Shown here: piece by piece, positions 17,964 to 32,233 of the stretch
Layout of the letters: each line of letters starts with the position of its first letter
Position numbering within the stretch: the stretch's first letter is position 1
From: a virus
Reading direction: 5' to 3' (one strand)
Length of the DNA stretch: 32,994 nt
IMG/VR virus record: IMGVR_UViG_3300030104_001840
Coordinates: 382-33,375 of that record
Notes under the pieces: model-generated
Database searches by the model: none
Told to the model about the DNA's origin: nothing
Seen by the model: the letters and a program-made list of their open reading frames with translations, nothing else
Made by a program: the position numbers and the translations under genes

Positions 17964-17997
17964 AAAAAAAAAGGTGGATAAAATAAATCCATCCACC
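17964..17997 (-). terminator. intrinsic terminator between tail tube and portal genes
   Basis: On the minus strand GGTGGAT (17997-17991) pairs with ATCCACC (17979-17973) around an 11-base loop, and nine T residues follow (17972-17964). It is a typical Rho-independent terminator. The next start codon is 13 bases further, leaving no room for a separate promoter downstream. It should reduce, not abolish, expression of portal, fibres and lysis genes. Confidence 0.8.
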
Positions 17998-20246: not shown

Positions 20247-20279
20247 AAAAAAAAAAGCCACTTAATAAAAAGTAGCTTT
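20247..20279 (-). terminator. intrinsic terminator before the scaffold-capsid unit
   Basis: On the minus strand AAAGCTACTT (20279-20270) pairs with AAGTGGCTTT (20263-20254), with one G-U pair and a 6-base loop. It is followed by a T-run (20253-20247). It ends the transcript coming from the tape measure, protease and Cys-rich genes. The next gene start is 44 bases away. Confidence 0.8.
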
Positions 20280-27850: not shown

Positions 27851-28305
27851 TAGCAATATGTCATTTCATCAGTTGTATTAATATCAAAAGTAATTGCCCA
27901 TCCTGCCAAACTGTTTTCAAATCTTTCTGTAAATGGTTCACAGCTAGGGGGGTTGTTAAGTTCAAATTGTTCTTTGTATAAATTCTTTTTTTGTAGCACT
28001 CTGATTATTCTAGTGCCTAACGCCATTTGAGTGTTAAGTACATCCTGTATATTGTTATTGCCTAGAAATAAATCACTAACTGCTTCTTTATTAAAATCAA
28101 CAATATCCATTAAAAATAATGTTACGTTAAATGCTACGTGGTTTTCGTTTATTGTAGCATTATTAATCATTAAATGTGCTAATGGAAATATGCTTTGTTT
28201 GTTTAAATCAATGTCGCTTATATCTCCAAAACTTATATTGTTGTTAAATGGTTCAGCAGTTACTACTGCTTTAATACTGTCTAATATGTTGTAAAAACTT
28301 TTCAT
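27850..28305 (-). CDS. tail terminator-like protein
   Basis: This 151-residue protein follows a typical form: AVVTAEPFNNNISFGDISDI, then SIFPLAHLMINNATINENHV, FNVTLFLMDIVD and a C-terminal segment SLAGWAITFDINTTDE. Such proteins, next to gp10-like genes in Bacteroidota phages, are thought to cap the tail tube at the head end. I assign it by pattern and position; no enzymatic motif exists. The gene starts at an ATG overlapping the prior stop (ATGA) and ends sharing a base with the next start. Confidence 0.55.
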   Translation of the reverse strand: MKSFYNILDSIKAVVTAEPFNNNISFGDISDIDLNKQSIFPLAHLMINNATINENHVAFNVTLFLMDIVDFNKEAVSDLFLGNNNIQDVLNTQMALGTRIIRVLQKKNLYKEQFELNNPPSCEPFTERFENSLAGWAITFDINTTDEMTYC

Positions 28306-28553
28306 AAATATTTAATAAATATTGGAGTCTTATCTCCAAAGTCTAACTCCGTTAATTCGTCTAATGTGTCTTTAGCTGTGTCAAAGTCCATATTCATTTT
28401 TTTTAAAAGAATATCAAGGCATTTAAAATAATCTAGCACAAACTGTTTTTTGTTTGTTGTTATAGCAACAGTTGCTTCTTCCAAACCCTGAGCAATTATT
28501 AAGTTTTCCAAATCGTTTTCAAAAATTATGTCTAATAATTTATCTCGTGTCAT
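28302..28553 (-). CDS. hypothetical tail-module protein (83 aa)
   Basis: A mostly helical, acidic protein (KLLDIIFENDLENLIIAQGL, then MDFDTAKDTLDELTELDFGD). I do not recognise a family. Its start codon overlaps the stop of the -1 frame ORF of the tail chaperone gene (ATGA at 28550-28553). This makes good sense only if that ORF is translated. It may assist tail assembly. Role otherwise unknown. Confidence 0.6.
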   Translation of the reverse strand: MTRDKLLDIIFENDLENLIIAQGLEEATVAITTNKKQFVLDYFKCLDILLKKMNMDFDTAKDTLDELTELDFGDKTPIFIKYL

Positions 28554-29286
28554 TTATTCTTTTTAAGCATTTTAGCTTCTAATTCGTATTTGTCTTTTTC
28601 AAATGCTAAATGGTTTAAACAGGTGTGTATATTTAGTTTAGTAACATTATCTAACCTTTCTATGTTTCCATTACATAAGGAGTAAATAGATTGATACCAG
28701 CCCCATTTAATAGCGAAACCCGCAGTTGCGGAGAGATTTCCACTTCCGTTTGTGTCGCTAAATAGCTCAGGATATTTTTCTGCAATTCCTTGTTTAAAGT
28801 CAAAAAAAAAGTCATTGCTCCAAATACAATATCAAGTGGCATCTGTTTCATATTTGCATTTTCTTTAGCTTCATATTCCTGTATTAAATATTTATTCTTT
28901 TTCTTAAATGTTATTGGCCTAAATAAAACATTCATAGCAATGTGCATTTGTTCCCATTCAGTTAGCAAATTATCTAAGTCAACATACTCGCCCAATGTCA
29001 TATTATTTAAATCGGGTATAAAGCCATATTCAACACCACTTAATGTAAACCTATCCTTAAAAGGAGATTCATCCTTAAACAGCTTTAAAATGTCGTTCAC
29101 TATTGCATCAGCATCAGTTGCTTTAATAGCGGTAACAGTTTTTAGTGGAATGTTGCAAAATATTTCAATCAACTTTTGCTGTAAGAAATTATCCATTTCT
29201 TTTTTATCAGCTATTTTCAACCATTGCTGATACTGGTTTAAAGTAATATCGTTTAATGATGTTGGGATGTTAATACTTACTTTCAT
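28550..29286 (-). CDS. tail assembly chaperone, long product by -1 frameshift
   Basis: A -1 shift on the T9 run (28810-28802) would join the first 161 codons to an open frame that runs to a TGA at 28550, giving 245 residues. The -1 extension has about 83 codons after the slip. Its last part (AIKWGWYQSIYSLCNGNIER, DNVTKLNIHTCLNHLAFEKD) looks like a real domain. This frame contains no ATG, GTG or TTG before its final six codons, so it can hardly be started independently. Its stop overlaps the next gene's start (ATGA). The slip string T TTT TTT fits the X-XXY-YYZ rule. An indel in the homopolymer during sequencing is the main alternative. Confidence 0.6.
28660..29286 (-). CDS. tail assembly chaperone-like protein, short product
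   Basis: This 208-residue helical protein has the form DITLNQYQQWLKIADKKEMD ... RFTLSGVEYGFIPDLNNMTL ... GEYVDLDNLLTEWEQMHIAM ... FGAMTFFLTLNKELQKNIL. It begins the virion operon right after the terminase, behind a 40-base spacer with the CGTCTATA motif. At codons 159-162 the gene contains a T9 run, after which a second frame is open. This is the arrangement of G/GT-type tail chaperones. The unshifted end (GAGINLFTPYVMET) also looks like a conserved terminus, so both products probably exist. The family itself is recalled from Bacteroidota phages rather than proven. Confidence 0.6.
   Translation of the reverse strand: MKVSINIPTSLNDITLNQYQQWLKIADKKEMDNFLQQKLIEIFCNIPLKTVTAIKATDADAIVNDILKLFKDESPFKDRFTLSGVEYGFIPDLNNMTLGEYVDLDNLLTEWEQMHIAMNVLFRPITFKKKNKYLIQEYEAKENANMKQMPLDIVFGAMTFFLTLNKELQKNILSYLATQTEVEISPQLRVSLLNGAGINLFTPYVMET
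28802..28810 (-). promoter_or_regulatory. T9 slippery site for -1 frameshift
   Basis: On the minus strand nine T residues follow ATGAC, with codons ACT TTT TTT TTG in the zero frame. T TTT TTT allows both tRNAs to re-pair after a one-base slip. Both frames stay open for about 140 bases after it. A CCGC/GCGG hairpin lies about 70 bases downstream, further than most stimulatory structures. Confidence 0.6.
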
Positions 29287-29326: not shown

Positions 29327-30499
29327 TCAATACAAATAATATTCTCCTCTGTTTGGGTTTTCTAATACCATCATAATACAATAACGAGCAGCATCAATAG
29401 CGTGGTCGCCATTCATAGGGTTTGGTTTCTGTAGAGTGTTACCTTGTTTGTCTTTCATCCAGATATAACCTTCTAATTCTTTTTTTAGGTTTTTACTTCT
29501 TGTAGTAACTAATATTTCATTTTGGTTAATTAAGTTAATTCCGTATATAATAGAATCTTTGCCTTTAGTAACTGGAAATATATCGTGTCCATAACTGCGT
29601 AATTCTGCTATTGACTTTGGCTCTGCTGAATCAGCATATATATAACCCATTAAATTATTGTTTAAAATAAAGTTGGATATATCACTGTTAAGCATTTTGT
29701 TTCTGTATAATACTTCATCAAATATGTAACTGTCATTGTATTTGTATAATGCTACAATTGATGTGCTGTCTACAGAATAACCAAAGTCCATTCCATAACC
29801 CATTAATCGTGCTTCATTTGGAACAATATCAATTTCTTTCCACGTTGGAATACAAGCACCTTCAAGTGAGCCGATTTGCCCCAACCCGTAAACTTTCCAC
29901 CAGTTTGCCCAATATGTAGATGTCTTTGCTTTTTCCCTGTTTTTTTCTAATTCATCAATTATAGTTTGTGGCAATACATCATTGTCTTTATAAGTCAGGG
30001 TAGTAAAATCTGTATTAGGTTGCCCAACTAATTCTTTATCTACCCAAAATAATGTAGCTGGGTTATAGTCTAACCATATTTTGCCACTTGTTCTGATTGC
30101 TAATTGTTGATATGCTTCAAACGTTACATTGTTACACTCATTGACAAACAAACAATGCCTACGAGCTCCACGTAATTTATCTGGGCTATCAGTTGAAAAA
30201 AACTCTATATAGCTACCATTACTAAATTCGTATTTTAAGGAACTTTTATTATAGTTGTGGGGTTTATATATTCCCGTCGTCTTAAGTATGTTTAGAAAGT
30301 CTTTTAACGCACCACGTCTTAACGCTGGTATAGTGTCAGTAACTACACTTATTTCTGCATAGGGTGTAGCTATTGCATAATCAATTAATAATGATAGTAT
30401 AGCAAATGTTTTACCAGCACTTGTTCCACCCCTTACAATCTTTGTTCTGCTTTTAAGTAATGATAATTTCTTGACTGCTTTTGTGTGCGCCCATTCCAT
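29327..30499 (-). CDS. terL: terminase large subunit
   Basis: This 390-residue packaging motor has a Walker A (GGTSAGKT, 24-31), a Walker B with catalytic Glu (CLFVNECN, Glu121), a motif III-like segment (IWLDYNPA) and an RNase-H-like nuclease domain with Asp238 (GMDFGYSVD), Asp290 (YIYADSAEP) and Asp365/369 (GDHAIDAARY). It cuts concatemeric DNA and translocates it into proheads. The gene sits after a DUF5681 small-terminase-like gene and a 26-codon ORF. Its start codon shares a base with that ORF's stop (TAATG). Length is at the short end for the family, but all motifs are present. Confidence 0.9.
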   Translation of the reverse strand: MEWAHTKAVKKLSLLKSRTKIVRGGTSAGKTFAILSLLIDYAIATPYAEISVVTDTIPALRRGALKDFLNILKTTGIYKPHNYNKSSLKYEFSNGSYIEFFSTDSPDKLRGARRHCLFVNECNNVTFEAYQQLAIRTSGKIWLDYNPATLFWVDKELVGQPNTDFTTLTYKDNDVLPQTIIDELEKNREKAKTSTYWANWWKVYGLGQIGSLEGACIPTWKEIDIVPNEARLMGYGMDFGYSVDSTSIVALYKYNDSYIFDEVLYRNKMLNSDISNFILNNNLMGYIYADSAEPKSIAELRSYGHDIFPVTKGKDSIIYGINLINQNEILVTTRSKNLKKELEGYIWMKDKQGNTLQKPNPMNGDHAIDAARYCIMMVLENPNRGEYYLY

Positions 30500-30998: not shown

Positions 30999-31658
30999 TT
31001 ATTTTCTTTCTGATATTGTCATTTTTTCTCCTTTATACATTCCTGCTCCTCTTTTATCTATTTCATTAAAAGGTATAATTGGAACATTTATTTTTAATTT
31101 TTTATCTATTAAGTAGATGTATCTATTTTGAAAACCTTTTAATGGTTTTGCTCCAGTGAAATTATATTTACTATCACCTCTTTTAGCCACGATTTGACCG
31201 TTTGCTAGTTTATAAATAGTTCCGTTTTTATTTATTTGAGTTAATTTAAAACCGCTTGCTCTATATATAGTACCGTCTCCACATTGGGTTGCATCTGAAT
31301 AAGACAAAAGCCATTTTATTTGTGGAGCATTTTTTTTAATTAATCGTATGCTTATTGCAATACATCTGCTTTCTGAATACTTGGGCAAATAATCGTCAAA
31401 AGCCATTCTGTTTAATTCAAGCATTTCGTTCCACCTTTTATTTAAATCTTTAATACCTGAGTCAACAAGGGGTAAAACATTTCTTTTATCCATAGGAGAA
31501 CCGTAGCTCATAACTCCGTGTAGTTTGCCGTCTAGAAAACATCCAAAATGTAAGTTGCTCATATAAACAACCTTTCCAGAATAGTGGTGTCTCTTTACAA
31601 AATCGTTAGCAGTTTTGCTTTTTATTACTTTGACTATTATTTCTTTTGCTCTACCCAT
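30999..31658 (-). CDS. Mom-like DNA adenine modification protein
   Basis: This 219-residue protein resembles phage Mu Mom, a GNAT-fold enzyme that modifies adenine to protect phage DNA from host restriction. Visible family features are HHYSGKVVYMSNLHFG (24-39), LELNRMAFDDYLPKY (80-94), the RLIKKNAPQIKWLLSYSDAT core (105-124) and GDGTIYRASGFK (127-138). The start overlaps the ParB-like gene by 22 bases. Mom is usually tightly regulated because it is toxic when expressed early; here it is followed by a palindrome and the packaging genes, so late expression is plausible. The modified base itself cannot be read from sequence. Confidence 0.75.
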   Translation of the reverse strand: MGRAKEIIVKVIKSKTANDFVKRHHYSGKVVYMSNLHFGCFLDGKLHGVMSYGSPMDKRNVLPLVDSGIKDLNKRWNEMLELNRMAFDDYLPKYSESRCIAISIRLIKKNAPQIKWLLSYSDATQCGDGTIYRASGFKLTQINKNGTIYKLANGQIVAKRGDSKYNFTGAKPLKGFQNRYIYLIDKKLKINVPIIPFNEIDKRGAGMYKGEKMTISERK

Positions 31659-32233
31659 TGCATTATTAATAAATATAAAGCGTTCCCATTGCTGTTTTCA
31701 TTTCCAAATGTTTCGACGTATTTAAACTCTTCTGTTTTTTTAATTTCAACTATTGCGTTTTTTACTTCTTCAGCTTGCTTATCTGCTAAAACATAAGTTT
31801 GTTGCTGAATCGGTTCTTTATCTCCATTCGGTAAATTAAACTCGTCGCTTGTTTCTAAATCATCGATATTTTGCCAACTATCCATACCCCAGTTTTCAAG
31901 CTCTACAGTATTCCACTCATTAGCAATAATATCCCAGTCCCATTGACCAAAGCCAACATTGTCTTTAATTGTAAATTCTCGCTGTTCTTTCGCTGATAAT
32001 TCACTTGCTTTAACAATATAAACTTCTTTTAATCCAGCTTCTTTACAAGCCTTTAAACGCATATTACCACCCAGCACAATCATATCATCATTCACAACGA
32101 TTGGGCGTAGTTCTAACATCTTAGGAAATTCTTTAATTGAGTTAACTAATTTTTTAAACTTAATGTCTTTAATTAGTCTTGGGTTATCTGGGTTACTTTT
32201 AACCTTTGATATTTTAATTAATTCACTTTTCAC
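31637..32233 (-). CDS. ParB-like nuclease/DNA-binding domain protein
   Basis: This 198-residue protein starts at a GTG (32233) overlapping the previous stop (GTGA). Its N-terminal ParB/Srx-type domain has NPDNPRL (14-20), an I-V-V strand and GGNMRLKACKEAGL (55-68), the ParB box II-like motif. A WDWDIIANEW segment (98-107) and a conserved C-terminal domain (about 150-198) follow. In phages such proteins often stand beside DNA-modifying enzymes or terminases, where they may act as sequence-specific DNA binders, nucleases or CTPases. Here it is coupled to the Mom-like gene. The exact role in modification or packaging is inference. Confidence 0.75.
   Translation of the reverse strand: MKSELIKISKVKSNPDNPRLIKDIKFKKLVNSIKEFPKMLELRPIVVNDDMIVLGGNMRLKACKEAGLKEVYIVKASELSAKEQREFTIKDNVGFGQWDWDIIANEWNTVELENWGMDSWQNIDDLETSDEFNLPNGDKEPIQQQTYVLADKQAEEVKNAIVEIKKTEEFKYVETFGNENSNGNALYLLIMQWVEQKK

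Follow-up and report, generated by a model that had tools for sequence, protein, structure and literature searches.

We identified a phage gene that contains a hidden -1 reading frame and that, on the evidence of its sequence and of its relatives, probably gives rise to two products through programmed slippage of RNA polymerase at a run of T's. The gene lies in a 32,994-nucleotide stretch of the IMG/VR virus record IMGVR_UViG_3300030104_001840 (positions 382 to 33,375), hereafter called the window, to which all coordinates refer unless stated otherwise.

In the mechanism that we propose, RNA polymerase would copy the nine T's (T9) faithfully in some transcripts (U9), whose translation would yield a 208-aa zero-frame protein, and in other transcripts one U would be added (U10) or two would be lost. 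Ordinary translation of the U10-type mRNA would enter the -1 frame and produce a fusion of ~245 aa with a C-terminal, 86-aa helical domain, and transcripts of the U8 or U11 type would meet a stop codon within ~2 codons. The two products would then probably serve tail assembly, as a pair similar to G and GT.

Organization of the locus

The features of the locus are as follows, in the order of transcription.

29327..30499, minus strand: gene of TerL, the terminase large subunit, upstream neighbour, conserved in 318 relatives
28660..29286, minus strand: zero-frame ORF coding for the G-like product of 208 aa, PHROG 32199, with homologues in 369 relatives
28550..28831, minus strand: open -1 frame from stop to stop, 93 codons, with no upstream start codon, under purifying selection in alignments
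28802..28810, minus strand: T9 run (A9 on the plus strand), the putative slippage site, zero-frame codons ACT TTT TTT TTG, at least nine T's long in 368 of 369 relatives
28553..28810, minus strand: translated part of the -1 frame, predicted T-like domain of ~86 aa with a KWGWY core, PHROG 38404
28799..28802, minus strand: +1-frame stop TGA (TTTGAC), formed directly where the run ends, which closes the third frame
28660..28801, minus strand: dual-coding overlap downstream of the T run, both frames, from the substitution pattern
28550..28553, minus strand: ATGA, in which the -1 frame stop TGA (28550..28552) overlaps the start of the next gene, found in 79 cluster-states
28302..28553, minus strand: next gene, 83 aa, PHROG 13182

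The run begins at the third position of a zero-frame codon (phase 2) in the window, and ~140 nt separate it from the zero-frame stop, over which both frames are read. The earliest ATG, GTG or TTG of the -1 frame is located 71 codons in, as was also read on the near-identical sequences L002 and L003, and a shift at the run is predicted to give the fusion of ~245 aa. The original prediction, made from the letters of the DNA alone, had described a -1 frame of ~90 codons across the end of the gene, devoid of early ATG, GTG or TTG codons, with about 140 bases of double coding and an ATGA overlap with the next gene; all these elements were recovered, with small differences in coordinates. Besides the 79 cluster-states with the ATGA overlap, 79 more have an ATG at most 15 nt away. 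Translation of the shifted frame may be coupled to that of the downstream gene, as the ATGA (28550-28553 in the window) occurs in approximately half of the clusters.

The +1 frame is shut no more than two codons past the run in 357 of 363 relatives. However, these conserved stops are largely by-products of the -1 codons TTT-A/G (Phe-Lys/Arg), and we therefore did not count them as evidence.

Relatives of the gene

As queries against IMG/VR we used the zero-frame protein, the -1 domain, alignments of each and one distant homologue, and many relatives were retrieved. Our sample comprises 369 distinct relatives forming 161 clusters at 85% nucleotide identity, including the cultured Nonlabens phages P12024S and P12024L. 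The carriers represent a large phage group related to phages of marine flavobacteria. In scans of genome contigs, the zero-frame protein as query retrieved two flavobacterial MAG contigs, and the -1 domain as query led to no confirmed relative.

In 179 of 179 relatives no stop codon interrupts the -1 frame, whose register relative to the upstream frame is always the same, and this layout was then read in 215 sequences and in the pattern sets described below. None of the relatives examined has fused frames, and all 369 keep the shifted layout. The original prediction had located the slip at the T9 run and had proposed to look for the run and the second frame in related phages: both are kept there, with at least nine T's in all relatives but one and always in the unfused -1 register.

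Coding capacity of the -1 frame

We determined substitution rates at codon positions 1/2/3 by pairwise comparison of 97 disjoint close pairs. Upstream of the overlap, where only the zero frame is read, the rates are 0.043/0.021/0.155. In the overlap they are 0.020/0.073/0.059 for zero-frame codons, position 2 of which is position 3 of the -1 frame, and past the zero-frame stop they are 0.040/0.015/0.129 for -1 codons. Most substitutions in the overlap fall on the second and third positions of zero-frame codons, a pattern that the reading of both frames predicts. Judged by these rates, the locus displays the expected succession of one frame, two frames and the other frame. Both frames are constrained in the first 25 codons of the overlap, and the -1 frame dominates beyond. 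The claim that the hidden frame encodes a coherent domain is in line with this substitution analysis, which shows purifying selection on the -1 frame.

The model of the -1 domain is all helical (pLDDT 72). Foldseek searches with this model and with the zero-frame model both identified certain viral proteins of 234-267 aa, a length that agrees with the fusion predicted here; they include A0A516L611, A0A516L5A8 and A0A6J7WJY4. The two-half matches of these distant proteins suggest that they are single-frame fusions. Conservation of an 'NGxGI' motif in the zero frame was considered as an independent signal and rejected, as it is a by-product of the KWGWY motif in the -1 frame. Altogether, as far as can be read from the sequences, the hidden -1 frame is real and so is the second, fusion product.

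Run length and the nature of the slip

The original prediction had placed a programmed -1 frameshift on the T TTT TTT heptamer. This corresponds to -1 programmed ribosomal frameshifting, in which two Phe tRNAs would re-pair one base back on U UUU UUU, as in lambda G/GT. The G/GT layout of the locus speaks for it; ribosomal shifts are typical of tail chaperones, and no relative lacks an in-register T TTT TTT. Nevertheless, neither the heptamer nor the variety of phases is informative alone, because every run of nine T's contains an in-register T TTT TTT in any phase.

Among the 369 relatives the run is T9 in 273, T10 in 76, T11 in 17, T12 in two and T8 in one, and it is found in all three codon phases. 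In register, the codons of the slip site are c1 = NNT, c2 = TTT, c3 = TTT and a variable c4. We devised a compensation test with pattern scans of IMG/VR that demanded only seven T's, to collect relatives whose flanks permit T7 or T8. In set i, c4 does not begin with T; in set ii, c1 is not NTT. All 40 members of set i have nine or more T's in a row, mostly through c1 = TTT, and among the matches listed so do 117 of the 118 members of set ii, via c4 = TTG, TTT or TTC. Both sets taken together, 157 of 158 sequences among the matches listed hold at least nine T's by virtue of added T's on the opposite flank.

The same trend emerged at the level of clusters. Codon c1 is TTT in 13 of 13 clusters with a non-T c4 against 8 of 149 otherwise (Fisher p = 4e-14), and among the matches listed c4 is TTN in 71 of 72 clusters with a non-NTT c1 against 15 of 90 otherwise (Fisher p = 1e-29); these p-values are rough, as the clusters are not fully independent. 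In phase 2 (set ii), replacing TTG by CTG at c4 would change neither protein and would leave the heptamer untouched. TTG is kept in all 37 Leu cluster-states among the matches listed (P ~1e-5, given how often the gene uses TTG and CTG). The run-length rule might partly reflect covariation of amino acids, but this doubly synonymous site speaks against it. Thus, from the comparison of sequences, selection maintains nine or more consecutive T's whatever the codon phase, and not merely an in-register heptamer.

The exception, L456, has eight T's (GGT TTT TTT TCT) and a good -1 frame, and its 90%-identical relatives have T10. This eight-T run (L456 / L477), the only one among the relatives, may mark how short the site can become, or may belong to a copy in decay.

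In the rest of the slip gene, T runs usually attain 4-6 at most, and none has eight T's. In the 815 kb of coding DNA around the loci, only two other sense runs of T9 or longer were found, against 160 slip sites, whereas non-coding DNA contains eight such runs per 100 kb. Runs of this length are therefore avoided in genes save at the slip site. We also observed 23 sense A9-A10 runs in the 815 kb, within predicted ORFs of L358, L387, L417 and others; these may point either to additional sites of slippage or to genes with a frameshift. In the window itself, an A9 (17964-17972) and an A10 (20247-20256), which are sense T runs on the minus strand, are intergenic, in contrast to the lack of such runs within genes.

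Lastly, we searched for ribosomal stimulators, which often accompany -1 ribosomal frameshift sites but are not indispensable. No conserved RNA structure was detected downstream of the run (mean z of -0.05 over 161 clusters; zero pairs by RNAalifold), and a Shine-Dalgarno-like element is absent upstream of it in 142 of the 161 clusters. Ribosomal slippage leaves the extra T's unexplained, because the heptamer needs only seven of them: constraint would be expected on the heptamer only, yet flanking T's are maintained to a total of at least nine in 157 of the 158 listed relatives that could do with T7 or T8, a doubly synonymous position beyond the heptamer never varies, and neither a stimulatory structure nor a Shine-Dalgarno-like element is conserved. 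We consider a purely ribosomal event unlikely, albeit the strongest of the alternatives, and ribosomal and polymerase slippage could both act. The shift to the -1 frame at the run is among the parts of the original prediction that stand; the assignment to a ribosomal heptamer fits poorly with the nine or more T's and the lack of a stimulator.

Slippage of RNA polymerase is favoured because the run is kept at nine T's or more in any phase and no RNA structure or Shine-Dalgarno-like element is conserved. In agreement with this, runs of nine A's or T's cause efficient slippage of bacterial RNA polymerase in vivo, and the RNA-DNA hybrid of the Thermus enzyme is 9-10 bp long (PMC5009743). Baranov et al. 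regarded the conservation of a 9A/9T run among homologues as the sign that transcriptional slippage is in use (PMC1088944).

Two further explanations appear very improbable. The first invokes variation at the DNA level or sequencing errors: long T runs are generally mutable and prone to miscounting (PMC1088944), and a T10 genome, by phase variation or a miscounted homopolymer, would fuse the frames. However, although the run varies from 8 to 12 T's, every relative examined is in the unfused register, and selection acts on both frames in the overlap. In addition, an assembly artefact is very unlikely because T9 is also present at the homologous site of the cultured Nonlabens phage P12024L (JQ823123.1, L092:7558-8252).

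The second, of equally slight probability, is separate translation of the -1 frame by internal initiation, coupling at the zero-frame stop or a non-standard start. Some relatives do have a start codon of the -1 frame near the run, and a separate small ORF is annotated in P12024L, but 215 of 361 relatives have no ATG, GTG or TTG ahead of the conserved GWY core, the run is invariant, and the fusion-sized proteins match both halves. The P12024L record lists gp40 and gp41 as two separate hypothetical proteins, which bears out the claim that gene annotation misses the second product. This record would need a joined gp40/gp41 product.

Genetic environment and putative function

The slip gene is located between the gene of TerL and a probable tail-completion gene. 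Downstream of it is a conserved set of ORFs of 83, 151, 196, 385 and 740 aa, and the tape measure gene is farther on; in the window, five ORFs separate the -1 frame from the tape measure ORF, so that the slip gene is not directly upstream of the latter. Just upstream of the terminase region, we noted a Mom-like DNA modification gene (30999-31658) and a gene for a ParB-like nuclease or methyltransferase (31637-32233).

PHROGs 32199 (zero frame) and 38404 (-1 frame) cover the two halves, and neither carries a functional annotation. Sequence searches of Pfam, NCBIfam and the PDB with both products retrieved nothing of known function, and no significant match emerged when the PDB was searched for folds resembling the zero-frame model. 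The viral models that this AlphaFold model (pLDDT 80) matches are for the most part unnamed; its weak fold matches include a protein annotated as a tail assembly chaperone (probability 0.99, E 0.036) and one annotated as a tail assembly protein (E 0.32). At the sequence level, the two predicted products have a common N-terminus, and one of them a -1 extension, as in G/GT. Based on this layout, a G/GT-like tail chaperone is a plausible if weakly supported identity. The description of the gene as a tail chaperone gene in the original prediction hence agrees with the G/GT-type layout, but not with its location away from the tape measure gene, and the matches to known families are weak.

Implications

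Overall, we are inclined to think that in a large clade of phages the ratio of a G/GT-type protein pair is set at the RNA polymerase and not at the ribosome. The underlying 'nine-T rule', which agrees with the length of the RNA-DNA hybrid and is upheld in any phase by compensatory codon changes, would be the first such case for an assembly gene of tailed phages, as far as we found. In the literature that we searched, whose coverage is incomplete, we found no transcriptional slippage in a phage assembly gene, and the shifts of tail chaperones are ribosomal. G/GT is indeed treated there as a ribosomal event, whereas the comparative test used here separates selection on run length from selection on the heptamer and favours RNA polymerase. 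If this is correct, the stoichiometry of virion assembly would be coupled to the host transcription machinery via slippage, and gene callers would overlook a conserved protein across this phage group. Frameshift predictors based on the heptamer only could misassign the mechanism, and the test of run length versus heptamer can be reused at other homopolymeric recoding sites.

Comparison with known systems

Like lambda G/GT and its phage analogues (PMC5009743), the locus combines an upstream ORF with a start-less -1 ORF, predicted to yield a short product and a fusion, and the gene belongs to a phage morphogenesis cluster. Nevertheless, it differs by a phase-independent run of T9-T12 in place of the heptamer, by ~50-65 codons of double coding, by its position after TerL and not directly before the tape measure gene, and by the absence of detectable sequence homology. 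The original prediction had equated the layout with that of G/GT, save for the homopolymeric site; this holds for the upstream ORF and the start-less -1 ORF, but not for the position of the gene. Homologous counterparts are gp40/gp41 of the Nonlabens phages P12024S and P12024L (Inhavirus), which share the homologous gene, the T9 run and the -1 frame but have no more than 26-28% identity with the proteins of the window and are annotated as separate hypothetical proteins.

Transcriptional slippage is known for Thermus dnaX, for Shigella mxiE and spa13 of type III secretion and for IS elements (PMC1088944, PMC5009743). Those systems share with the phage gene a conserved run of at least nine A's or T's and a conserved shifted frame, and RNA structure is unneeded. 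In contrast, the putative case described here belongs to a gene cluster for virion assembly in phages, features a dual-coding overlap and is conserved across 161 clusters with compensatory changes.
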